Assembly: GCA_017549335.1 (NCBI GenBank)
Contig: JAFYVB010000027.1
Coordinates: forward strand, 1 to 35,841
Direction: 5' to 3'
DNA length: 35,841 bases
From: Clostridia bacterium
GTDB taxonomy: Bacteria; Bacillota; Clostridia; Christensenellales; Aristaeellaceae
This document shows, piece after piece, positions 2,670 to 30,609 of this stretch. Positions within the stretch are counted from its first letter, which is position 1. Each line of letters starts with the position of its first letter. Under the pieces are notes generated by a model. That model did no database searches and was not told the DNA's origin. It saw only the letters and a program-made list of their open reading frames with translations. The position numbers and the translations under genes are program-made.

Positions 2670-3626
2670 TCAAAACTTGATAAATGTTGTCTTGAAGCCG
2701 CCAAGCGTCTGATCATTCACAAGTTCAATATACATATCGCCATCCACGTAAAACTCAGGAGTTGCTTTGTTATCCTTGGAAAGAACCAGCTTGATTCCCC
2801 AGAAGTTAAACTCGATTCTGTTCATACCATGCTTGACACACAGTTTTTTGATCTCACCGGGAGCAAGATCAAGCTTTTCGCCGGTTTTAAATATACATTC
2901 AAGATTGCCAAGCTTTTTGAGCATTTCGGGCTGTTTCTGGTTGTTGGGAAGTGCTGATCTTTTGATGAAAAGCGTCGCCATTCCGGGTACGGACTGCGTG
3001 TCGCTTGCAGCCATGTCGATCCCGTAAAGTTCCTTGCAGTCATAGTATTCCTGCGTATGATCCATATAGGTAACAACGGCATGGTCGAGCTTTGCTGCGG
3101 TAATCGCAGGATTTTTCCACATGGTTTCGATAATACCCGTCTGTTCCTTGCCGATACCTAACGGGCCTTCCACATTCATTATGAACATGGAACGTCCGCT
3201 GAGCTCGCAATACATTTGTTCACCCATTGCATTCAACGGCAGAAGATATACATCCACATACTTGACCGTTTTTCCGGCAAGGTTCTTCACAAGAATCTCC
3301 GCACCGATGGTTTTTGACACGGGATGCGGGCCTTCGGCAAAATACGGTTGCATAAAGGGCAGACGGAAATCTTTATGACCAACCTTCACAAGTGTTACAG
3401 ACAGTTTGTTCGGTGAGTCAGACGTGTGCATGGGGACGTTTTCTTCTTCGTCAACATCCTCGCTGGCAGGTGCAGATGTTGATCCCGCCGGAGCTTCGTC
3501 AACTTCTTTCATCATTTTCTTTGCATCCTCCGAGGAATATTTGCAGCCGCAACCCTGACATACAAACAAGCCGTCTTCCTTGACAAACTCTGTGCTCTCG
3601 CACATTTCGCATACAATTTTCTTCAT
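2670..3626 (-). CDS. Zinc-ribbon protein of unknown function
   Basis: About 318 residues. I prefer ATG 3626 over ATG 3635: for 3635 the GAAGGG touches the start codon, while for 3626 it has normal spacing. The N-terminus is a zinc ribbon with C6-x2-C9 (CEMC) and C23-x2-C26 (CQGC), followed by YSSEDAKKMM, a common clostridial zinc-ribbon ending. After an acidic, low-complexity linker comes a beta-rich domain of about 230 residues with no motif I can name. Such proteins often carry the ribbon on varied C-terminal domains. The upstream region has five GCTCTT/AAGAGC half-sites, suggesting control by a dimeric regulator. Confidence 0.65.
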   Translation of the reverse strand: MKKIVCEMCESTEFVKEDGLFVCQGCGCKYSSEDAKKMMKEVDEAPAGSTSAPASEDVDEEENVPMHTSDSPNKLSVTLVKVGHKDFRLPFMQPYFAEGPHPVSKTIGAEILVKNLAGKTVKYVDVYLLPLNAMGEQMYCELSGRSMFIMNVEGPLGIGKEQTGIIETMWKNPAITAAKLDHAVVTYMDHTQEYYDCKELYGIDMAASDTQSVPGMATLFIKRSALPNNQKQPEMLKKLGNLECIFKTGEKLDLAPGEIKKLCVKHGMNRIEFNFWGIKLVLSKDNKATPEFYVDGDMYIELVNDQTLGGFKTTFIKF

Positions 3627-3687
3627 ATGCTCCATCCCTTCTTTGCCTGATGGCGTTTTTGATACCTCAATTTTAGGGGAAAATAAC

Positions 3688-3744
3688 GCTCTTGTAACGC
3701 TCTTATCAAGAGCATTTGGCCTGTTTTATGCTCTGAATAAGAGC
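3688..3744. promoter_or_regulatory. Cluster of five GCTCTT/AAGAGC half-sites upstream of the zinc-ribbon gene
   Basis: GCTCTT occurs at 3688-3693 and 3699-3704. AAGAGC occurs at 3708-3713 and 3739-3744, with a partial GCTCT at 3730-3734. They form two hairpin-like inverted repeats (GCTCTT-ATC-AAGAGC and ATGCTCT-GAATA-AGAGCAT). On the minus strand TAAAAT at 3671-3676 could be a -10 box, with GTTACA 17 bases upstream as a weak -35 falling among the half-sites. This reads as an operator region for the zinc-ribbon gene string. Confidence 0.45.
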
Positions 3745-3792
3745 ATTTCCGTTCTTTTGCCTGCTTCTGGTATAAACCAGCAGCAGACGCAT

Positions 3793-3820
3793 AAAAAAAT
3801 CGCCCCCGGCTGGGAGCGAT
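3793..3820 (-). terminator. Rho-independent terminator of the XRE gene
   Basis: On the minus strand ATCGCTCCC pairs with GGGGGCGAT (one G-U), followed by seven T. It lies 16 bases after the stop of the regulator gene. Confidence 0.85.
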
Positions 3821-3835
3821 TGAAAAGCTGTGAAA

Positions 3836-4615
3836 TTATTCCGCAAGCTGCTTGGAGAAGGGCATGAACTGTTCCATGATGATGCTGTTTCCCTTCGCGT
3901 CCGTTCCGTAAACCGTCACGCGAAGTCCCTTCAAGGGCTGGTTGGGCATGCCGCCACCAAAGGCAAGCTTGCCCCAAGGTACAATTACGCCATCAGAGAG
4001 GAACAGTTCCTGGGGCGTGAAGGTGCGAGGCTGCTCTTCCTGCCCCTGCTCGTTGATGTATACCTGAAATACCTTTTCAATGGTAAACTGAACGCCCGCA
4101 GTTTCCTCAATGTTGACATTGTAGAACCACACAGCCGTTTCAGCATCTTCGGAAGGATAGCGCAGCAGCACCGGGCTTTCATCGGTATAAATAGAAAGTT
4201 CAGCCTGTGCCGCATCGGAGGAACGGTTGCTGACAGGAATCGCCAAGGTCTGATTGACAAACTTGGGTGCCGCCAGATAGCCCATCAGGAATCCAACAGC
4301 CAAACCAACAGCAAGGCAAATGATGCACAACACCGTGGTATGCTGCTTGCGGTCAGCCTTGGGAACCTCCAGCGGATCTGCGGTTTCCTCCACAGGGGTC
4401 TCCACCGCCTTTTCTTCTACGACGGGCATGGAATCCTCAATAAAGTTATAATTCAATACCTGCGACAGCTTCTTCAAGGTTTCCGCATCGGGAAGCGTTC
4501 TGCCGTTTTCCCAATGGCTGACACCCTGTCGGGACATATTCATCAGGTTCGCCAACTGTTCCTGTGAAAGACCTGCGGCCTTTCGTGCCTCATGAAGTTG
4601 CTCTTGGAATGTCAT
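3836..4615 (-). CDS. Membrane-anchored XRE-family transcriptional regulator
   Basis: The start is ATG 4615 (MTFQEQLHEARKAAGLSQEQ), giving 259 residues; AGGCGG lies upstream. Residues about 5-58 are an HTH_3 (Cro/CI) domain with GLSQEQLANLMNMSRQGVSHWENG. After an acidic, proline-containing linker there is one membrane span at about 92-114, then an extracytoplasmic domain of about 140 residues with no motif I recognise. DNA-binding domains tied to the membrane this way occur in Firmicutes as sensors of envelope or external signals. The gene has its own promoter, and the region upstream carries helically phased 10-bp repeats that are candidate binding sites. The inferred role is one-component sensing; the ligand is unknown. 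Confidence 0.8.
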   Translation of the reverse strand: MTFQEQLHEARKAAGLSQEQLANLMNMSRQGVSHWENGRTLPDAETLKKLSQVLNYNFIEDSMPVVEEKAVETPVEETADPLEVPKADRKQHTTVLCIICLAVGLAVGFLMGYLAAPKFVNQTLAIPVSNRSSDAAQAELSIYTDESPVLLRYPSEDAETAVWFYNVNIEETAGVQFTIEKVFQVYINEQGQEEQPRTFTPQELFLSDGVIVPWGKLAFGGGMPNQPLKGLRVTVYGTDAKGNSIIMEQFMPFSKQLAE

Positions 4616-4654
4616 AATCATACCGCCTGTTCTTGTTTTGATGAGTCGCGAAAC

Positions 4655-4683
4655 ATTATAACAAATTCTCAAAAATTATTCAA
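4655..4683 (-). promoter_or_regulatory. SigA-type promoter for the XRE regulator
   Basis: Minus strand TTGAAT (4678-4683), 17 bases, TATAAT (4655-4660). The spacing is ideal and the -10 is consensus, 40 bases before the start codon. Confidence 0.8.
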
Positions 4684-4730
4684 GATTCGCAGGAAATGAG
4701 CCAAAACAGCAGAAGCAATCTCGCAATTTA

Positions 4731-4810
4731 TGATAATTTGCAAGATTTCCGTCGAATTTGTGATATTTTATGATATTCTACGATATTTTGATAAATTGCA
4801 CGATATTCTG
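4731..4810. repeat. Phased 10-bp repeats (GATATT type) in a gene-free region
   Basis: Between the XRE gene (minus) and the SGNH hydrolase (plus) lie 446 bases without a convincing gene. Consecutive 10-base blocks at 4761, 4771 and 4781 read TGATATTTTA, TGATATTCTA and CGATATTTTG; a fourth at 4801 reads CGATATTCTG. Looser relatives start at 4731 (TGATAATTTG), 4741 and 4751. The exact 10-base step puts them on one face of the helix, as in operator arrays or intrinsically bent DNA. A 78-codon frame through this area has no ribosome site or sensible protein and is not called. Confidence 0.6.
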
Positions 4811-4872
4811 ACAGAACGCGTGCAAATCTATGCTTCATCAAGTCTCGCATCGGGCGCACAGACACCGGCAAA

Positions 4873-4889
4873 CGAAAAAATTTTTTTCG
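4873..4889. repeat. CGAAAAAA/TTTTTTTCG palindrome
   Basis: CGAAAAAA (4873-4880) is followed directly by TTTTTTTCG (4881-4889), and TTTTTTTCG recurs at 4898-4907 before a second CGGTGG. Repeated A/T tracts edged by CG suggest bent DNA or a binding site about 50 bases upstream of the hydrolase promoter. Confidence 0.35.
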
Positions 4890-4933
4890 ACGGTGGAATT
4901 TTTTTCGCGCGGCGGTGGCCTAACCCCCTTCAT

Positions 4934-4962
4934 TTGATAATTTCCAAAATTTTTGGTATAAT
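4934..4962 (+). promoter_or_regulatory. SigA-type promoter for the SGNH hydrolase
   Basis: TTGATA (4934-4939), 17 bases, TATAAT (4957-4962). It leaves a leader of about 90 bases before ATG 5062. A second TATAAT at 5021-5026 has no good -35. Confidence 0.8.
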
Positions 4963-5061
4963 ATAGGTACAAGGTAAGAGATTACAGAAAAGTACTTTAT
5001 GTTATACGATGCCTTGCTATAATCAAACACAGATATTTTGATATAAAAAAAGGAGATTCAC

Positions 5062-5688
5062 ATGAAAACGTTTCTTCTTCAGGGAGATTCCATTACCGAT
5101 GCGGGAAGAAACCGCGAGATTGACCGGGCGCGCGGTCACGGCTATCCCACGCTGGTGGCGTCGGAGCTGACGTATGATTATCCCGGACAATTCAACGTGA
5201 TCAACCGCGGCATCAGCGGAAACCGTATTGTGGATCTGTATGCCCGCATCAAAAAAGACTTTCTGAATCTCAAGCCCGATTATCTGTCCATCCTCATCGG
5301 CGTGAACGACGTATGGCATGATTACATCGGCGAGCCCAACGGCATATCGGACCAGCGTTTCCGCAGGATTTACGATATGCTGATCGAAGAACTGCGCGCC
5401 GAACTGCCGGATGTGAAGATCTACATTCTGGAGCCCTTCGTGCTGCGCGGAACCGCTACCGAAGAGCACTGGGAGGACTTCGCCCGCGAAGTACCTCTGC
5501 GGGCAAAGAGCGCTAAATGGATCGCCGAAAAGCACGGCTTGCCCTTCATTCCGCTGCAGGAGAAGTTTGATGAAAAATGCCGTCTTTGCGAAGCCTCCTA
5601 CTGGCTTTGGGACGGCGTTCATCCCACGGCAGCCGGTCACGAATTGATCGCCCGCGCCCTGCTGGAAAGGGTCAAAAAGGATCTTTAA
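5062..5688 (+). CDS. SGNH/GDSL-family hydrolase (intracellular esterase type)
   Basis: This 208-residue protein starts at ATG 5062 behind AAGGAGA. It carries the four SGNH blocks: GDSIT with Ser10 in block I, GISGN with Asn54 in block III position, GVND with Asn82, and DGVHPT with Asp184 and His187. The family hydrolyses acyl esters, often removing acetyl groups from sugars or polysaccharides. There is no signal peptide, so it acts in the cytoplasm. Size and motifs fit the short lipase_GDSL_2 type. It has its own promoter and terminator, so it is probably a single-gene unit. The substrate is unknown; deacetylation of an imported glycan is a reasonable guess. Confidence 0.9.
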   Translation: MKTFLLQGDSITDAGRNREIDRARGHGYPTLVASELTYDYPGQFNVINRGISGNRIVDLYARIKKDFLNLKPDYLSILIGVNDVWHDYIGEPNGISDQRFRRIYDMLIEELRAELPDVKIYILEPFVLRGTATEEHWEDFAREVPLRAKSAKWIAEKHGLPFIPLQEKFDEKCRLCEASYWLWDGVHPTAAGHELIARALLERVKKDL

Positions 5689-5740
5689 GCAGTTCAGTCG
5701 CGTACTCTTTCCTGCTATGTTCCCTGCAATTCGAATCGAT

Positions 5741-5776
5741 AAGAGCCTTTCCGTCCGAAAGGCTCTTTCTTTTTTA
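5741..5776 (+). terminator. Rho-independent terminator after the SGNH hydrolase
   Basis: AAGAGCCTTTC (5741-5751) pairs with GAAAGGCTCTT (5757-5767), followed by a T-rich run. Confidence 0.9.
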
Positions 5777-5829
5777 GCATATTCCTTCCGCATCTGCCGC
5801 ATACTAAACGGCAGAGAAGGAGGGATTTT

Positions 5830-6264
5830 ATGATCGAACAGGATACCGTACGGCTTTTAAGGGAATGCGACGCGGGCATTAAAATGGGCGTGGAGTCTAT
5901 CGAGGAAGTGGTGGACAGAGTGCATTCCAAGGATTTCCGTCAGGTGCTGGTGGATAGCCGCCAGAAGCACAATGAACTGGACCGCGAATTGCAGCAGATG
6001 CTGAATCGCTATCAGGACGAGGGCAAGAACCCCAATCCCATGGCGCAGGGAATGTCATGGCTGAAAACCAACGCCATGCTGATGATGAAGCCCGATGACC
6101 GCACCATCGCCGATCTGATGACCGACGGTTGCAACATGGGCGTAAAATCACTGCACAAGTACCTGAACGAATACAAGGCCGCCGATGAAAAATCCAAGGA
6201 TATCGCCAAAAAGCTGGTCAATCTGGAACAAAAGCTGGCAGTGGATATCCGAACCTATCTGTAA
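5830..6264 (+). CDS. Four-helix-bundle protein resembling DUF2383
   Basis: This 144-residue protein starts at ATG 5830 behind AAGGAGGG. It is almost wholly helical and amphipathic, with recurring E/H/D positions. The layout resembles the PA2169/DUF2383 group of ferritin-like four-helix proteins: it opens with a helix in the style of LLRECDAGIKMGVESIEEVV and ends KKLVNLEQKLAVDIRTYL. Members are poorly characterised and have been linked to stress or spore coats. There is no signal peptide. It stands alone between two terminators. The assignment rests on pattern only. Confidence 0.65.
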   Translation: MIEQDTVRLLRECDAGIKMGVESIEEVVDRVHSKDFRQVLVDSRQKHNELDRELQQMLNRYQDEGKNPNPMAQGMSWLKTNAMLMMKPDDRTIADLMTDGCNMGVKSLHKYLNEYKAADEKSKDIAKKLVNLEQKLAVDIRTYL

Positions 6265-15096: not shown

Positions 15097-15357
15097 ATAG
15101 TAACGCGATGACGAAATCAAGTAAGCTGTGGCTCAGCCCTTCAGAGAACTGCCGGTTGCTGCAAGGCAGCAGGGACGCCAAAGCCGAATACCTTTCCGAG
15201 CGGCAGGCTGAACTTTCAGTAGGCCTTGACGGGCGCGCCCGATACAGCGCCGGGGTCTGATGGGATCCTATGAGACCGTTTTATGCGGTAAATTGAGGTG
15301 GTACCACGGGGAAACTCGTCCTCTGCTGTTTGTGTAGCAGACGACGGGTGATTTTTT
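15097..15357 (+). promoter_or_regulatory. T-box leader, aromatic amino acid class (Tyr or Phe)
   Basis: The leader has the T-box sequence GAGGTGGTACCACGG at 15295-15309, the AAGTA specifier-loop motif at 15119-15123, an apical stem I hairpin CTGCC/GGCAG (15149-15168) with the CAGAGA bulge, and stem III GGTCT/AGACC (15254-15277). A terminator stem (15314-15327 with 15336-15349) is followed by six T. The tRNA-binding bulge is TGGT (15299-15302), which pairs with A73 tRNAs; Tyr and Phe tRNAs have A73, while bacterial Trp tRNA has G73. Specifier candidates are TAC at 15189-15191 (in CCGAATACC, my preference) and TTC at 15215-15217. Uncharged tRNA should favour readthrough into the operon. Confidence 0.9.
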
Positions 15358-23123: not shown

Positions 23124-23201
23124 CAACAAAAGTACTATCAAAGAAATAAACAATATATAGAATGAATTTATCTTGCAGCATTGAGAAAGGACACTGTCAT
23201 T

Positions 23202-24608
23202 ATGAGAAAATTACTTCTTATCCTAATGCTTTTATTATCCGTTTGTTTGTGCAGTGCATGCTCTACAAGTGAGGACTACGTTCAAACACCCGAAGTTACG
23301 AGTGTTGTGGCAACAAAAAAACCGAATAGCGATGGAACATACGATTGTGATTTGTTTCGGTATCGAATCCTGGAAGATGGCACGGCAGAAATCCGTGAGT
23401 TTATTGGTACAAGCAAGTACCTTACTACTGTAAACATTCCGGATAGTCTCGATGGATATACGGTTACTTCTATCGGTTCACGTGCTTTCGTTGATCGTAC
23501 AATTCCGCACAATATCAGCATTCCTGACAGTGTTACCACGATTGTTGGTAATCCCTTCCGCAGCAGCGGCATTACCAATATAAGCGTGTCGCCTGATCAT
23601 CCGGTATTCGCCGTCATTGACAATGTATTGTTCTCTAAAGCAGATAAACGGTTGGTATTTTATCCTTATTCCGAAGCAACTTCTTATTCAGTTCCTTACG
23701 GCATCCAAATAATCGGCGAAGATGCTTTTAATAATTGCGATAATTTGAAATCTGTCAGCATCCCTGACAGCGTTGTTCTTATTGAAGACTCCGCTTTTGG
23801 AGGGTGTTCTAATCTTGCTTACATCGATATTCCCAAAAACGTTCATACGATCGGTGCTTCTGCCTTTGAGAGGTGCGAGGTTCTTAAAGAAATCAATTTG
23901 CCAAGCAGCTTGACAAGTATCGGAGAATCAGCCTTCTCACAATGTAAAAAGCTCACCAATATTACCATCCCCGCTGGAATAACCACCATTGAAGAGTCTA
24001 CCTTTAGTATGTGCTATGGTCTCAAAAGCGTTACCATCCCAGACAGTGTTACAATGATCGATACATACGCATTCCTCGGTTGTGATGCTCTCACTGATAT
24101 CAATATTCCAAACAGTGTAATTTCTATTGGTAAGGGTGCTTTTTCCTCGTGCTATGGCTTAACCCGCATTGTTATTCCTTATGGTGTGACTACTATTGGA
24201 GAAAAAGCATTTTCGCTTTGCACTAAAGCAACGAATATTTCCATCCCCAACAGTGTGGTTTCCATTGGGGCGCGTGCGTTTTCGTCATGCACTAATGTGA
24301 CGAATATTACTATCCCCAATAGTGTGGTTTCTATTGGGGAAGGCGCATTTTCTCTCTGTTCTAATGCTACCCAAATCACAATTCCAAACAGCGTGACTTC
24401 CATCGAAGCTTATGCATTTGAGAGTACAGCGCTAACGGAATTAACAATTCCGGAAAGTGTTACCTTCATTGGAAGAAAAATACTAGATGATTGTCCTAAT
24501 CTCAAAAACGTCATCGTTTCCCGCGGTTCCTACGCTGCCCAATATTGTAAAGATAACGGGTATCCTTACACTTACCCCGATGCTAACAATGATTGGCTTA
24601 CTAATTAA
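23202..24608 (+). CDS. BspA-type leucine-rich-repeat surface lipoprotein
   Basis: The start is ATG 23202 (MRKLLLILMLLLSVCLCSAC) with AAAGGA upstream; an in-frame TTG at 23181 is less likely. 468 residues. A hydrophobic signal ends at the lipobox-like LCSAC, so the protein should be lipid-anchored outside the cell. Then come about 13-14 repeats of about 23 residues with the LRR_5 pattern (SITIPDSV, SIGxxAF, CxxLT). Such proteins mediate binding to host or bacterial surfaces. Codon use is AT-rich, unlike the GC-rich neighbours, and the gene lies between two related repeats: signs of a transferred cassette. The ligand is unknown. Confidence 0.9.
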   Translation: MRKLLLILMLLLSVCLCSACSTSEDYVQTPEVTSVVATKKPNSDGTYDCDLFRYRILEDGTAEIREFIGTSKYLTTVNIPDSLDGYTVTSIGSRAFVDRTIPHNISIPDSVTTIVGNPFRSSGITNISVSPDHPVFAVIDNVLFSKADKRLVFYPYSEATSYSVPYGIQIIGEDAFNNCDNLKSVSIPDSVVLIEDSAFGGCSNLAYIDIPKNVHTIGASAFERCEVLKEINLPSSLTSIGESAFSQCKKLTNITIPAGITTIEESTFSMCYGLKSVTIPDSVTMIDTYAFLGCDALTDINIPNSVISIGKGAFSSCYGLTRIVIPYGVTTIGEKAFSLCTKATNISIPNSVVSIGARAFSSCTNVTNITIPNSVVSIGEGAFSLCSNATQITIPNSVTSIEAYAFESTALTELTIPESVTFIGRKILDDCPNLKNVIVSRGSYAAQYCKDNGYPYTYPDANNDWLTN

Positions 24609-25872: not shown

Positions 25873-27030
25873 TTATTTCCAGTCCGTATTAAACAGGAGA
25901 TCGGCGATCGCACCGCACACAGCGTAAATACCGTAGCTGTCCCTCCCGTAAGCGCCGGTGCTGAGCACCACAACGCCGTCCTTCCTGACAGGGTCGTAAG
26001 CAATGAGATTAAACTCGCCGCTATTGCTTCCCGTGTGATAATACAGGCCCTGTCTGCCGTACATATTCTTGCGGTAGCGCAGCGGCTGTGCCTGATAGAA
26101 TTTTTCGTCGGGAACAATTTGAGGAATATACTTTTCAAGCGCCGCAACAACGCTTGCACTGATGATGCGCTCGCCGTCGTAGCAGCCGTCATTGGCCAGC
26201 ATGGCAACCACCTTGCCCAGATCGTAGGCGCTTGCGCGGTAGCTGCCCGCAAAGGCGCCGCCGTTCTTGCCGGGCCCGGGAGCATGGGCTTCCATCTGCG
26301 ACTCCTTCGACGCCGTCACCTTGCGGTCGTTATTGTAAATGGTTGCGATCTTCTCGGGCGCTTTCAGATCTCCGCCCCAGAAGGAGCCGTCCATTTTCAG
26401 TTTGTCGGCAAAGGCCTCCTCCAGAATCTGATCCATGGTTTTGTTATTGGCCCGTTCCACCGCCATACCCAGCACGTAGAAGGCATAATTGCTGTAGGAC
26501 CAGTTTTTGATATCCCCGGAAGCGTAGGCTAAAACGGCCTTTTTACCCGTAAGATGTTCCTTTACGTCGCTGTATCTTCCGCTGACTTTATCGTCCGGCG
26601 TATCGATGGAAGACGTATGCGTCAGAATGGAGCGTGCCGTTACCTTATCCTTGCTGTTGCGCAGGCGGATCTTAAAGCCCAGATACTGATCAATGCCGGC
26701 ATCCAGATCCATCAGCCCTTTTTCAGCCGTCAGATGCGCCGCAAGCCCCACCATCACTTTGGTGATCGACGCCGTACGCACCTTGGTATCGGGCTTCATC
26801 TTCACTGTTTTCCGCGTAGCATGACCATACACAAAGGTATCCGCTACAACGCCGCCACGCACGTAAGCCACGGTAACGCCCACAGCATCATATTTTTTGC
26901 TGATGGCTGTGATCTTATCCTGAATCTCCTTATGCTGCTTCGTATTTTGCACAACGGCGGTCGCCGAAACCTCCGCCGTCGCCTGCGAAAACAGCAGGCA
27001 CAGCAGCATAAGTATGCTCAACAAACGCAT
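25873..27030 (-). CDS. Exported beta-lactamase-fold serine hydrolase
   Basis: The start is ATG 27030 with GGAGGAAG upstream; the longer reading to 27090 would overlap the promoter. 385 residues. Signal peptide MRLLSILMLLCLLFSQATA. Active-site motifs of the class C beta-lactamase/penicillin-binding family: S88-I-T-K91, Y-S-N (in NWSYSNYAF), and HTGS in place of KTG late in the protein. Such enzymes are D,D-peptidases, esterases or D-amino-acid amidases outside the cell; clinical beta-lactamase activity cannot be assumed. Single-gene unit. Confidence 0.88.
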   Translation of the reverse strand: MRLLSILMLLCLLFSQATAEVSATAVVQNTKQHKEIQDKITAISKKYDAVGVTVAYVRGGVVADTFVYGHATRKTVKMKPDTKVRTASITKVMVGLAAHLTAEKGLMDLDAGIDQYLGFKIRLRNSKDKVTARSILTHTSSIDTPDDKVSGRYSDVKEHLTGKKAVLAYASGDIKNWSYSNYAFYVLGMAVERANNKTMDQILEEAFADKLKMDGSFWGGDLKAPEKIATIYNNDRKVTASKESQMEAHAPGPGKNGGAFAGSYRASAYDLGKVVAMLANDGCYDGERIISASVVAALEKYIPQIVPDEKFYQAQPLRYRKNMYGRQGLYYHTGSNSGEFNLIAYDPVRKDGVVVLSTGAYGRDSYGIYAVCGAIADLLFNTDWK

Positions 27031-27061
27031 TTTGCTTCCTCCACTCGCAACATGTACCGCA

Positions 27062-27090
27062 ATTATATAGAAAAGCGAAAATATCGTCAA
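27062..27090 (-). promoter_or_regulatory. Promoter of the serine hydrolase
   Basis: Minus strand TTGACG (27085-27090), 17 bases, TATAAT (27062-27067). Its -35 overlaps the last codons of the GTPase-endonuclease gene. Confidence 0.8.
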
Positions 27091-29753
27091 TCACACGCTC
27101 TGGAATGCTTCTTTTTCCACGCATCCATCATGGCTTTTTCAACCTTTTGGGAGCTTTCCGGACGGTTGTTGTTCCAGAGAATGCGCTCGATTTCCACCTG
27201 TGCAGCCTCTACCTCACGGCGGAATTCCTGTGCCGTCACGCGCAGAGCGCCTGCGCCGAGGATAATGCGCTGTTCCAATCCATCGCTTGTGGCAACGCGC
27301 ACCCGATGACGGCGGCTGATCTCGTAACTGGCTTTTTCGATGAAGCTGTCCGCGGTTTCGGCTTCCTTCGTATAGATCACATAGATATTATTGTACTTTT
27401 CCACCGATCCCACATTGCCCTGCACCTTATAGGCGTCAAATACCAATATGACCTCAGCTCCCTGCATGGCGCGGTAATTGCACAGGACGTCCATCAAAGC
27501 CTGACGGGCATGATCCAGATTCTGCGCCGCCTGCTGCTTAAGGTCTTCCCACGCAAAGATGATATTGTAGCCGTCCACCAGCAGATATTCCCTGACGGGT
27601 TCCTGTTTCCGATATGCCTGAGGCGCAGGTGTTTCCTTGCGCACGCCGTCAAAGAACGTGCGGTTTTTGACAGGACCGTAGGTGCGCTCAAATACTGCCA
27701 TCAGCGCCTTGTCTTCCTCCAGCGTTCCGCGGTAGGCGGCGCTTTTGCGCTCCACCGCCTGTGGCGCCCGGGCAGCAGGTTCTCTTTTCTCTTCGGGACG
27801 AACATGCATATATTCCGCCGCTTCGCGCCACGGAATCACTACGCCGGCGCCATGGGAGCAAAAAACGGAATCCGCCGTATTCTCCACATCGCGTTCGCTG
27901 TCATAGCCTCTTTCAAGGATGATCTTTTCCTGCTCGGCACAGGGCTCGTACCCCTTCAGCGCGCAGCTGATGCGCCCTCTGCCGCGGGTGTAAGCCGTCA
28001 CCTGGCGGGCATAATTGCGCGCCTTGGCAACGGGCACGGTGCATTGCAGGCTTGCCATATCCCCCTGTGTTTTCGGCGGTTCAAAGCTGCCGCCCATCTG
28101 CTGGATATCGCTCATGGCACGGCCTACCGCGTCCTGAGGCACGTCAAGGCGCATATCATACCAGGGCTCAAGAAGAACAGATTTCGCCTGCATCAGTCCG
28201 TGACGAACGGCGCGGTAGGTGGCCTGTCTGAAATCGCCGCCCTCGGTGTGCTTGAGGTGCGCTTTCCCAGCCAAAAGAGTGATCTTCATATCGGTGACGG
28301 GCGAGCCCGTCAGCACGCCCACGTGCTGTTTTTCGGACAGATGCCCCATGATCAGCCGCTGCCAGCCCCGCTCCAAATCGTCCACGTGGCATTTGGAATC
28401 AAAATGCATCCCGCTGCCCCGCGGCGCAGGCTCCAGCAGCAGATGTACTTCGGCATAATGGCGAAGCGGTTCATAATGTCCCGAACCCATGACGGGCGCG
28501 GCAATGGTTTCACGGTACAGCACACTGCCCTCGCTGAAGGTTACGGGGATACCAAAGCGATCGCGCATCACGCGGCTGATGATCTCAAGCTGCACGTCGC
28601 CCATCAGCTGCACGTGGATCTCCTGCAATCTTTCCTGCCATACAACGCGCAGCATGGGGTCTTCTTCCTCCAGCTGCTTTAAATTCCGCAGCGCCGTATG
28701 CACGTCGCACCCTGCAGGCAAAAGCACCTGATAGGTAAACGCAGGCTCCATCAGCGGCGCCTGACCGTCGTTTTCCGCCCCCAGCCCTTCGCCCGGGCGC
28801 GTGAAAGAAAGCCCCGTCACGGCGCAAACCGTGCCTGCCGCCGCGCTGTCAACCGTGGTATATTTCGCACCGGAATAAAACCTGATCTGATTGACTTTCT
28901 CCGTCCATACATTGTCATCAGGCATGCCCGGCCGCTTGTTGGTCAGCATCTCCCTGACGTTCAGACAGCCGCCGGTGATCTTCATATAGGTCAGCCGCGC
29001 CCCTTGCGGATCGCGGGCAATTTTATAAATACGCGCGCCAAAGGACGCGGGATACTGCTTTTCGGGAGCAAAACGCATCAGAGCATCCAGCAGTTCTTCC
29101 ACGCCCTGAATTTTCAGCGCAGATCCGAAAAACACCGGGAATACGCTGCGCTTACCGATCTCCATCGCCACGGTGGCGTCGGGGATCTCCCCGTTATGGA
29201 GGAAGCGGCTGAGCAGCATTTCCGAGCACATCGCCAGATTTTCCGAAAGGTTTTTATCGGCAAAATCAAGGCAGTTTTCGCTCAGCTCTTCCTGCAGCTG
29301 GGCAAGCAAACGCGCTCTGTCCGCGCCCGCCTGATCCATTTTATTGATAAATATAAATGTGGGTACCCGGTATCTTTCCAGCAGACGCCACAGCGTCAGG
29401 GTATGCCCCTGTATACCGTCCGCGCCGCTGATGAGCAGCACGGCGCAGTCCAGCACCTGCAGCGTGCGCTCCATTTCGCTGGTAAAATCAACGTGGCCGG
29501 GGGTATCCAGCAATGTGATCTGCATATTCTTCCACGCAAACCGCGCCTGCTTGGAAAAGATGGTGATCCCCCGCTCCTTTTCCTGCACGTCGGTATCCAG
29601 GAAAGCATCGCCGTGATCCACACGGCCAAGCTTCCTGATCTCGCCGCCCAGATACAGCATGGCTTCCGAAAGCGTGGTTTTTCCGGCGTCCACATGGGCC
29701 AAAACACCCATGCAAAGAGGCCTTTTACAGCCGTTGTTTCCCTGTGCGCCCAT
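27087..29753 (-). CDS. TetM/EF-G-like ribosomal GTPase fused to a Rae1-like (YacP/NYN) endonuclease
   Basis: The start is ATG 29753, since AAAGGAGG lies 6 bases upstream; a reading from 29771 would place that site inside the gene. 888 residues. Residues about 12-650 are a translation-factor GTPase of the ribosomal-protection type: AHVDAGKTT (G1), RGITI (G2), DTPGH (G3), NKMD (G4), then domains II-V. In domain IV the loop that reads SPV in TetM/TetO reads HLKHTEGGDF here. After a linker with FERTYGPVKNR, residues about 723-862 match Rae1/YacP: LLVDGYNIIFAW, LVFDAYKVQG, EAETADSFIEK, VATSDGLEQ, GAGALRVTAQEFRREVE, with the acidic residues kept. Rae1 cuts mRNA in the ribosomal A site. A ribosome-clearing GTPase that also cleaves mRNA is the inference; tetracycline resistance is possible but unproven. 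Confidence 0.93.
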   Translation of the reverse strand: MGAQGNNGCKRPLCMGVLAHVDAGKTTLSEAMLYLGGEIRKLGRVDHGDAFLDTDVQEKERGITIFSKQARFAWKNMQITLLDTPGHVDFTSEMERTLQVLDCAVLLISGADGIQGHTLTLWRLLERYRVPTFIFINKMDQAGADRARLLAQLQEELSENCLDFADKNLSENLAMCSEMLLSRFLHNGEIPDATVAMEIGKRSVFPVFFGSALKIQGVEELLDALMRFAPEKQYPASFGARIYKIARDPQGARLTYMKITGGCLNVREMLTNKRPGMPDDNVWTEKVNQIRFYSGAKYTTVDSAAAGTVCAVTGLSFTRPGEGLGAENDGQAPLMEPAFTYQVLLPAGCDVHTALRNLKQLEEEDPMLRVVWQERLQEIHVQLMGDVQLEIISRVMRDRFGIPVTFSEGSVLYRETIAAPVMGSGHYEPLRHYAEVHLLLEPAPRGSGMHFDSKCHVDDLERGWQRLIMGHLSEKQHVGVLTGSPVTDMKITLLAGKAHLKHTEGGDFRQATYRAVRHGLMQAKSVLLEPWYDMRLDVPQDAVGRAMSDIQQMGGSFEPPKTQGDMASLQCTVPVAKARNYARQVTAYTRGRGRISCALKGYEPCAEQEKIILERGYDSERDVENTADSVFCSHGAGVVIPWREAAEYMHVRPEEKREPAARAPQAVERKSAAYRGTLEEDKALMAVFERTYGPVKNRTFFDGVRKETPAPQAYRKQEPVREYLLVDGYNIIFAWEDLKQQAAQNLDHARQALMDVLCNYRAMQGAEVILVFDAYKVQGNVGSVEKYNNIYVIYTKEAETADSFIEKASYEISRRHRVRVATSDGLEQRIILGAGALRVTAQEFRREVEAAQVEIERILWNNNRPESSQKVEKAMMDAWKKKHSRACD

Positions 29754-29781
29754 AAAAAGCCTCCTTTCCATTATCTTATTT

Positions 29782-29874: not shown

Positions 29875-30609
29875 ATGGCCGAAAGTAAGCATTTGAACGA
29901 ACTGTGCAGCCGCGCTGCGGGAAGAAGCTTTCCCCTGTTCAGCCGTTTTCTGAACCTTGCGGAGCAAAAAGATGCAGAAATAGCCGCCCGCAAGGCAGGG
30001 GCGGCATATTTGCTGTGGGGCGGCAATGAAGATTGCGAACGCAAAATGCTGGGTGTATGCGGAGAAGATGCTCCTTTGGCCCATGAATTTCCGCTGGAGT
30101 GCATTAAAATTACCGCCAGAAGCGCCAAGTTTTCCTCTCCCTTGCAGCACAGGGATGTTCTGGGATCGCTGATGGGGCTTGGCTTTGAACGCGAGCTGAT
30201 CGGCGATATCGTGCTGCGTGAGGATGCCGCCTATGTATTTTGCACCGATAAAATGGCGCTGTTCATCTGCGAAAACCTGCCGAAGATCGGCAATACCGCC
30301 GTCCGCTGCGAGCTGTCCCTCCCGCCCGAAGGCCCGCTGCGCGCCTATCGTGAAGTGCGCATTCAGGTATCCTCCCCGCGAATTGACGCCGTAGTAGCGC
30401 ATTTGTATAAGCTCAGCCGCACCGATGCGCAAGCGCTGTTCCGTCAGGGGCGCATCATGGTGGATGACGCCGTGTGCGAGCGCACCGATTACGCTTTGCG
30501 GGAGGGGCAGGTGCTTTCCGTTCGCGGTTTCGGACGCGCCCGGTACGTCGGCGTGGAAAGCCTGAGCAAAAAGGGCAAAAGCAACGTGATCATGGCGCAA
30601 TACGTTTAA
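29875..30609 (+). CDS. ylmH: YlmH-type S4-domain RNA-binding protein
   Basis: 244 residues, start ATG 29875 with AGGAG upstream. The N-terminal part (about 1-165) has FPLFSRFLNLAEQ and GLGFERELIGDIVL, typical of the YlmH family. The C-terminal S4 domain (about 168-235) reads SSPRIDAVVAHLYKLSRTDAQALFRQGRIMVDD. The protein binds RNA; the Bacillus homologue has been reported to act on stalled 50S-nascent chain complexes in ribosome quality control. It normally lies in the sepF-divIVA cluster; here it is divergent from a ribosomal GTPase-nuclease, which suggests a shared theme of stalled ribosomes. Confidence 0.88.
   Translation: MAESKHLNELCSRAAGRSFPLFSRFLNLAEQKDAEIAARKAGAAYLLWGGNEDCERKMLGVCGEDAPLAHEFPLECIKITARSAKFSSPLQHRDVLGSLMGLGFERELIGDIVLREDAAYVFCTDKMALFICENLPKIGNTAVRCELSLPPEGPLRAYREVRIQVSSPRIDAVVAHLYKLSRTDAQALFRQGRIMVDDAVCERTDYALREGQVLSVRGFGRARYVGVESLSKKGKSNVIMAQYV

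Follow-up and report, generated by a model that had tools for sequence, protein, structure and literature searches.

A GTPase-Rae1 fusion protein as a probable stand-in for free Rae1 in Clostridia

Gene and domain architecture of the fusion

The 35,841-nucleotide stretch of DNA analyzed in this study (the window; contig JAFYVB010000027.1, positions 1 to 35,841, of the Clostridia bacterium assembly GCA_017549335.1, family Aristaeellaceae) carries on its minus strand a gene in which an EF-G-like translational GTPase is followed by an NYN_YacP domain, the domain of the mRNA endonuclease Rae1. The features of this gene and the evidence for each are as follows.

27087..29753, minus strand: fusion gene, likely 888 amino acids (open reading frame of 894 amino acids from 29771); open reading frame and Shine-Dalgarno spacing
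29760..29765, minus strand: Shine-Dalgarno sequence AGGAGG, 6 nucleotides before ATG 29753; sequence
29064..29714, minus strand: GTPase (G) domain, residues 20-236, with P-loop, switch, DTPGH, and NKMD motifs intact; Pfam and alignment
28785..29036, minus strand: EF-G domain II, residues 246-329; Pfam, 24.8 bits, below cutoff
28533..28688, minus strand: EF-G domain III, residues 362-413; Pfam, 26.7 bits, below cutoff
28182..28529, minus strand: EF-G domain IV, residues 415-530; Pfam and conservation
28437..28487, minus strand: domain IV loop I, residues 429-445, family signature GHFEPLRHYAEV; alignment
28221..28265, minus strand: domain IV loop III, residues 503-517, HTEGGDFREA where TetM has SPVSTPADF; alignment
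27930..28178, minus strand: EF-G domain V, residues 532-614; Pfam
27792..27929, minus strand: family-specific C-terminal extension, residues 615-660, SVFCxxGxG...VPWxE...MH type; alignment
27591..27791, minus strand: linker, residues 661-727, model confidence mostly low; AlphaFold model and alignment
27678..27722, minus strand: conserved helix within the linker, residues 684-698, DKELxAIFERTYG type; AlphaFold model and alignment
27111..27584, minus strand: NYN_YacP/Rae1 domain, residues 730-887; Pfam and profile match

The gene is a single uninterrupted open reading frame (ORF; 27087 to 29771, 894 amino acids counted from the first ATG) with zero internal stops, which rejects the possibility of two separate proteins and agrees with the original prediction, made from the sequence alone, of one polypeptide joining a ribosomal-protection GTPase to a Rae1-type endonuclease. 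An AGGAGG motif at 29765 to 29760 lies 6 nucleotides upstream of ATG 29753 but downstream of ATG 29771; because its position and spacing fit only the former, ATG 29753, the start originally proposed, is preferred, and the protein is likely 888 amino acids long. Residue numbers used here count from ATG 29771, and subtracting 6 gives the numbering of the likely 888-residue protein.

Pfam searches identified the G domain (GTP_EFTU, residues 20 to 236, 1.5e-53), EF-G domain IV (residues 415 to 530, 3e-17), EF-G domain V (residues 532 to 614, 1.3e-18), and, at the C terminus as predicted, NYN_YacP (residues 730 to 887, 6.8e-49, 166.5 bits against a gathering score of 24.6). The matches to EF-G domains II (residues 246 to 329, 24.8 bits) and III (residues 362 to 413, 26.7 bits) fell just under the cutoff of 27, and these domains were accepted because the AlphaFold model aligned with whole EF-G structures. 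The model, built from 67 sequences, had a mean pLDDT of 87.8 and a pTM of 0.69, with confident domains and a linker of mostly low confidence save around the helix at residues 684 to 698. Searching Foldseek with the full model gave EF-G as the top PDB matches, with EF-G- and EF-2-type structures among the matches listed; the NYN assignment therefore rests on sequence. In the conservation and structure set (66 of 80 named loci plus the window, or 67 fusions), the mean consensus fraction was highest in domain IV (0.81), followed by the NYN domain (0.70) and the G domain (0.69), and the conservation of domain IV points to a specific task at the decoding site. A chimeric assembly artifact was rejected, given that the two parts are joined in the same way elsewhere, both in further genomes and in named records: this join was present in 32 other aligned genomes (chosen because they are fused), and a frame with both parts was contained in 80 of the 80 best-matching named loci, of which 6 were truncated at a contig end and a single one (L298) was split into two frames.

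The GTPase belongs to a family apart from TetM/TetO and EF-G

With its GTP-binding motifs and domains I to V, the window protein is of the EF-G type, and by analogy with this family its GTPase part would be expected to bind ribosomes and to hydrolyze GTP upon ribosome stimulation. This part shared 28% identity with TetM and TetW and 24 to 28% with the two EF-G-like proteins of its own genome, while identities to seven unfused proteins of 639 to 670 amino acids reached 41 to 46%. A 45-protein tree, in which Tet proteins were represented by TetM and TetW only (TetQ, TetP, and OtrA were left out), split 30 fusions and the seven unfused proteins from TetM/TetW and EF-G by a branch with 100/100 support, although the bootstrap had not settled; loci L149 to L151 had been removed from this GTPase set as duplicates of L322 to L324. 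Six of the unfused proteins clustered together (100/98), and the fused group (98/95) included one unfused protein, encoded on a Ligilactobacillus salivarius plasmid. Fused and unfused members had in common loop I of the GHFEPLRHYAEV type, loop III of the HTxGGDFREA type, and the extension after domain V. TetM and TetW carry SPVSTPADF in domain IV loop III, whereas the window protein has an HTEGGDFR-type loop instead, in line with the original observation that the SPV tip is missing. As judged from the tree and the alignment, the GTPase is thus a member of a distinct group with unfused members and not of the TetM/TetO kind, and the corresponding part of the original prediction was not borne out.

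This result bears directly on the published view of such proteins. Passages of Atkinson 2015 (PMC4342817) describe Tet proteins with a YacP-like NYN RNase domain in ten clostridial species, place these fusions in the Tet subfamily, and suggest an RNase-based resistance mechanism, whereby the GTPase could dislodge tetracycline or another A-site drug like TetM and the NYN domain would add RNase activity. In agreement with this, the best NCBIfam model for the window protein was tet_protect (413.9 bits, with the OtrA and TetQ models scoring lower), and an unfused relative is annotated as a member of the TetM/TetW/TetO/TetS family. However, the tet_protect score is far below the curated cutoff of 775, as were those of 5 of the 5 other family members scanned (two fused and three unfused; 379 to 437 bits), the identity to TetM/TetW is about equal to that to EF-G, and the family forms a separate group in the tree. 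Moreover, the SPV tip, whose Pro509 in TetM overlaps the drug site (PMC7456112, in part), is swapped for a different, strongly conserved loop, and the fusion is present where a housekeeping enzyme has been lost (described below). The surroundings also lacked signs of a resistance locus, as even the commonest neighbor family was seen at no more than 7 of the 35 fusion loci compared (window included; crude ORF calling) and was also present at a stand-alone locus, and no leader adjoined the fusion gene in the 11 fusion loci searched with Rfam (the T-box in L099, at 2003 to 2245, is >1.6 kb away). A role in drug resistance is therefore improbable, and the doubt raised earlier about simple tetracycline protection is endorsed. 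The architecture itself has been known since 2015, as had been surmised together with an undescribed function, but the published resistance reading is not favored; in open-license full-text literature, we found no description of the fusion besides that of Atkinson 2015. A plasmid-borne resistance gene was likewise rejected as a candidate, since only 2 of 1,380 matching plasmid records had a place covering ≥80% of the query, one of them being a 518-kb Monoglobus replicon.

Several relatives merit separate mention. The unfused gene of L. salivarius (L152, 5524 to 7908) lies on a 192-kb plasmid and adjoins a ribosomal protein S14 gene; its product is the one annotated as TetM/TetW/TetO/TetS family even though it lacks the SPV tip, while the single annotated fusion that we examined is named neutrally, as a "translation factor GTPase family protein". 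By eye, the seven unfused loci had no obvious common neighbors. Two more distant unfused matches (G441 and G270, 32 to 34% identity) clustered with TetM/TetW (93/89) and were not counted as members. L320 (5746 to 7680) and L321 (5721 to 7703) encode a second Tet-like group, with loop III HTHPQDF and 32 to 34% identity to the window protein; L320 scored 614 bits to tet_protect, also below the cutoff, and both look like a further unnamed group near TetM. Residues 611 to 660 of the window protein (27792 to 27941, minus strand) contain Cys and His positions (GYxxCHN, VFCxHG, and MH) that recur in fused and unfused members and could form a metal site, although not all of them are kept in every member.

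The fused NYN_YacP domains form one lineage

The NYN domain matched B. subtilis YacP/Rae1 (PDB 5mq8, 1.4e-26, chain residues 2 to 141). Residues D733, D779, D808, and E812 were identical in 67 of 67 aligned fusions and D830 in 66 of 67, so that the acidic residues are intact, as had been claimed; these are the residues that we take to be catalytic. When compared with 43 free Rae1 proteins, the fused NYN domains formed one group (91/90; 90% of 200 bootstrap trees) in a tree from whose stand-alone rows eight small fused loci were struck if present. Since the fused domains stand apart from the free Rae1 of the window's own family, the fused genomes of this family did not derive the fusion from the rae1 of their own lineage.

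Rae1 found only as the fusion in fused genomes

Judging from their titles, the 80 named loci came from Oscillospiraceae, Lachnospiraceae, Ruminococcus, Monoglobus, Butyricicoccus, Intestinimonas, and other Clostridia like these, with animal-gut metagenome assemblies making up many of the loci. A genome scan returned at least 592 confirmed stretches, a number that is not a count of fusions, as the scan used two patterns, one of which falls within the NYN domain. The window's own genome (41 contigs, 86% complete) contained a single NYN_YacP match, which was the fusion, together with two other EF-G-like genes. When 398 genomes from the phylum were sampled, the GTPase was detected at E ≤ 1e-80 in 36, among which 28 had it in a frame of >850 amino acids, and exactly one NYN_YacP match, the fusion, was present in all 28 of these fused genomes. 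NYN_YacP matches over the cutoff occurred in 215 of the 398 genomes and in 187 of the 370 nonfused ones (the frames of the weakest matches were not inspected); by simple arithmetic that ignores phylogeny, a further NYN_YacP would be predicted in about 14 of the 28 fused genomes if the two occurred independently, and none had one. Within the window's own family (36 genomes), 13 genomes had an intact fusion, 14 the free form, 5 neither, and none both; the remainder, kept outside the 13, comprised G009 (fused but cut by a contig end), G001 (a broken fusion in three frames), and G003 and G005 (unresolved contig fragments). Two NYN_YacP matches without a fusion were seen in G264, as two equal free copies, and in G359, as contig fragments.

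Two loci carried the fusion gene in pieces, namely, L103 of a same-genus genome (2965 to 5574, three frames) and L298 of a named metagenome assembly (3348 to 5952, two overlapping frames), which may reflect decay or assembly error.

Because many of these genomes are drafts and absence alone is weak evidence, the site that free rae1 normally occupies matters. Free rae1 sits between rlmB (found via Pfam PF08032) and sigH, usually with mrnC ahead of rlmB; the names mrnC and sigH are our presumption from sequence and B. subtilis gene order, and we take rlmB and mrnC to be rRNA-modification and rRNA-maturation genes. In the 33 of 33 fused genomes in which rlmB and sigH were found together, the gap between them was 1 to 345 bp (median, 108 bp) and contained no rae1 match, whereas in 11 of 11 free-rae1 genomes measured it was 537 to 764 bp with rae1 inside. 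The window's own genome had a gap of 99 bp, on contig 27. These 33 genomes combine 24 from the phylum sample, out of its 28 fused ones (G403, G124, and G451 had no sigH near rlmB, and G279 had no clear rlmB), with 10 from the own family, out of its 13 intact fusions (G007 and G010 were unresolved, and G035 was not searched), the window's own genome being in both sets. Thus, the best reading of these gene contents, one that goes beyond the original prediction, is that across much of the sampled Clostridia the fusion takes the place of free Rae1, and the empty site rejects the fusion as an accessory second Rae1. In G343, which has an unfused GTPase, free rae1 was kept but was not beside rlmB in the stretch read.

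The company of free rae1, which adjoins rlmB (also in B. subtilis, according to passages of PMC6613710) and the gene read as mrnC, would also suit an enzyme whose NYN domain targets rRNA or tRNA in maturation or ribosome turnover, with the GTPase picking immature or defective ribosomes. An older proposal for the YacP NYN domain, cited in Atkinson 2015 (PMC4342817, in part), points in this direction, and in the suppression of efp, losing YacO/RlmB and losing Rae1 work through one pathway (PMC6613710, in part). Later work, as far as passages of PMC12320835 and PMC6613710 go, nevertheless treats B. subtilis Rae1 as an A-site mRNA endonuclease, and the fusion gene lies outside the rlmB-sigH stretch, so we regard a stable-RNA substrate as unlikely.

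Apparently transitional genomes and repeated change

A sample of 393 genomes of the class, 250 of which had a match, included at least 80 frames of >800 amino acids among the matches listed, and among these matches five genomes had more than one. One of them, G722, carries the fusion together with an intact 174-amino-acid rae1 in the rlmB-rae1-sigH site. Another, G807, has the fusion and only fragments of rae1, with an in-frame stop, between rlmB and sigH; one fragment matched residues 1 to 33 of the Rae1 query and the other matched residues 96 to 132 of the window NYN query. In the remaining three, the second match was partial and below the curated cutoff. G722 and G807 look like transitional genomes, and the order from both forms through decay to an empty slot is the sequence that functional replacement predicts.

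In a tree of RlmB, the neighbor that stayed behind, the label fused or free required 8 changes among 60 labeled genomes, compared with a mean of 18.9 after shuffling, and at least three changes were forced by well-supported branches; nine genomes with neither form were left unlabeled. The exact number of changes is soft, RlmB being one short gene and the rows no random draw. Going by this tree, a switch to the fusion, or the loss of one of two forms, occurred more than once.

Proposed mechanism and its weighing

Considering the fusion itself, the intact G motifs and NYN acids, the single fused NYN lineage, and the slot without rae1, all of them visible in the sequences, we think that the gene probably encodes the cell's only Rae1, an A-site mRNA endonuclease tethered by a long, flexible linker to a translational GTPase that would bring it to stalled ribosomes. 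That the NYN domain is delivered in this way and gated by GTP is what we infer from the two partners: B. subtilis Rae1 is able to cut mRNA at the A site of the ribosome (PMC12320835 and PMC6613710, both in part), and TetM-type GTPases bind the A site, overlapping the site of EF-G (PMC7456112 and PMC8161019, both in part). The GTPase, with its EF-G-like domains and specialized domain IV tips, would enter the factor/A site of stalled ribosomes whose A site is empty or blocked; hydrolysis of GTP would then free domain IV while the linker holds the NYN domain at the same ribosome, and the NYN domain could next occupy the A site and cleave the mRNA there, like Rae1. As the NYN domain is expected to need the space that domain IV uses, these steps would have to follow one another, which the linker, 69 to 111 residues long between residues 656 and 728 (median, 78) in the 67 aligned fusions, would permit. 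The cut message would pass to tmRNA rescue and exonucleases; tmRNA was over the cutoff in 27 of the 28 fused genomes (all but G149; the control passed the cutoff in 9 of 14 genomes), indicating that a rescue route for cut messages exists. It is reasonable to suppose, as originally suggested, that one protein could sense a blocked ribosome, clear it, and cut the message.

It is also conceivable, if rather unlikely, that the two enzymes work independently, in which case the GTPase would be a stall-relief or recycling factor like EF-G2 or EF4, Rae1 would ride along, and the fusion would serve co-expression only. Unfused members do exist, two of six of them in genomes without NYN_YacP and one (L. 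salivarius) within the fused group, and the linker sequence is mostly unconserved. On the other hand, a single fused lineage has been kept across wide divergence with free rae1 missing from its slot, and the linker helix (D-x-E-L-x-x-I-F-E-R-T-Y-G) is conserved at 0.70 against 0.27 to 0.28 for the flanking linker, which suggests coupling. The seven unfused relatives terminate before this helix, at the C-terminal extension, and the helix may bind the ribosome or a partner.

Several observations weigh against a fusion that replaced Rae1 and delivers it by GTPase. G722 retains both forms, and the repeated label changes could also fit ancestors with both forms that lost one. In the GTPase tree, which is itself unsettled, the fused group, where support is low, includes the unfused protein of L. 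salivarius, and the nearest curated model for the window protein is still the Tet protection model. None of the seven unfused GTPase genes adjoins rae1, and the two unfused members without NYN_YacP (G416 and G371, of six in the 398 genomes) imply that the GTPase has some role without Rae1. Moreover, neither form was found in 5 of the 36 own-family genomes and no NYN_YacP match in 179 of the 398 genomes of the phylum, and with such genomes being common, the function is dispensable rather than essential.

Replacement of free Rae1 by a GTPase-delivered one nonetheless remains the explanation that we prefer, and a protein that has been filed under tetracycline resistance more likely serves as an intrinsic factor for ribosome surveillance; the evidence points to housekeeping, and the Tet labels on this GTPase family should be checked. 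Many Clostridia, gut species included, have lost free Rae1 and carry Rae1 as the tail of a ribosome-type GTPase. How Rae1 is recruited to particular stalled ribosomes is left unexplained in the passages of PMC12320835 and PMC6613710, and a GTPase of the A-site type is a candidate loader. More tentatively, and with somewhat less confidence than doubt, we suggest that the whole family consists of Rae1 loaders, a separate factor in the relatives that was joined to Rae1 once and whose fused form repeatedly displaced free Rae1 across Clostridia, making A-site cleavage a GTP-gated form of surveillance. If so, the unfused proteins would be unrecognized partners in Rae1 or stalled-ribosome pathways.

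Surroundings of the fusion gene in the window

Divergent from the fusion gene lies a gene (29875 to 30609, plus strand) for a YlmH-type RNA-binding protein, with YlmH_RBD above and S4 below the cutoff, from a family that is presumably ribosome associated; it was absent from the shared neighbors in the comparison of fusion loci. The downstream codirectional gene (25873 to 27090, minus strand) encodes a beta-lactamase family protein, whose mechanically called TTG start overlaps the fusion stop by 4 bases, the true start being probably further in. Farther away are a T-box leader (15099 to 15326, plus strand, 115.9 bits) and a gene for a BspA-type leucine-rich-repeat protein (23181 to 24608, plus strand; LRR_5, 468.5 bits, five matched stretches).

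Comparison with known systems

The original prediction thus stood as regards the fusion, the NYN acids, and the absent SPV tip, and it failed on the type of GTPase. What is new here is a GTPase apart from TetM/TetO, the apparent replacement of Rae1, and one fused NYN lineage with repeated switch or loss. TetM, TetO, and TetW are likewise EF-G-like five-domain translational GTPases, but TetM and TetW differ from the window protein in their domain IV tips and lack both the NYN domain and the extra C-terminal extension; EF-G has the same fold and domain order, with different domain IV loops. Rae1/YacP of Bacillus subtilis (PDB 5mq8 and 5mq9) has the same NYN_YacP domain with the same acids but is free, with 181 residues in the PDB chain and no GTPase, whereas the window protein is a GTPase fusion whose NYN lineage is separate from free Rae1 proteins. 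Free Rae1 forms sit in the rlmB-rae1-sigH stretch, and the slot is empty where the fusion is present. The proteins in the passages of Atkinson 2015 have the same architecture; there they were classed as Tet proteins and a possible resistance variant, and here they are read as a distinct GTPase family that probably replaces free Rae1.

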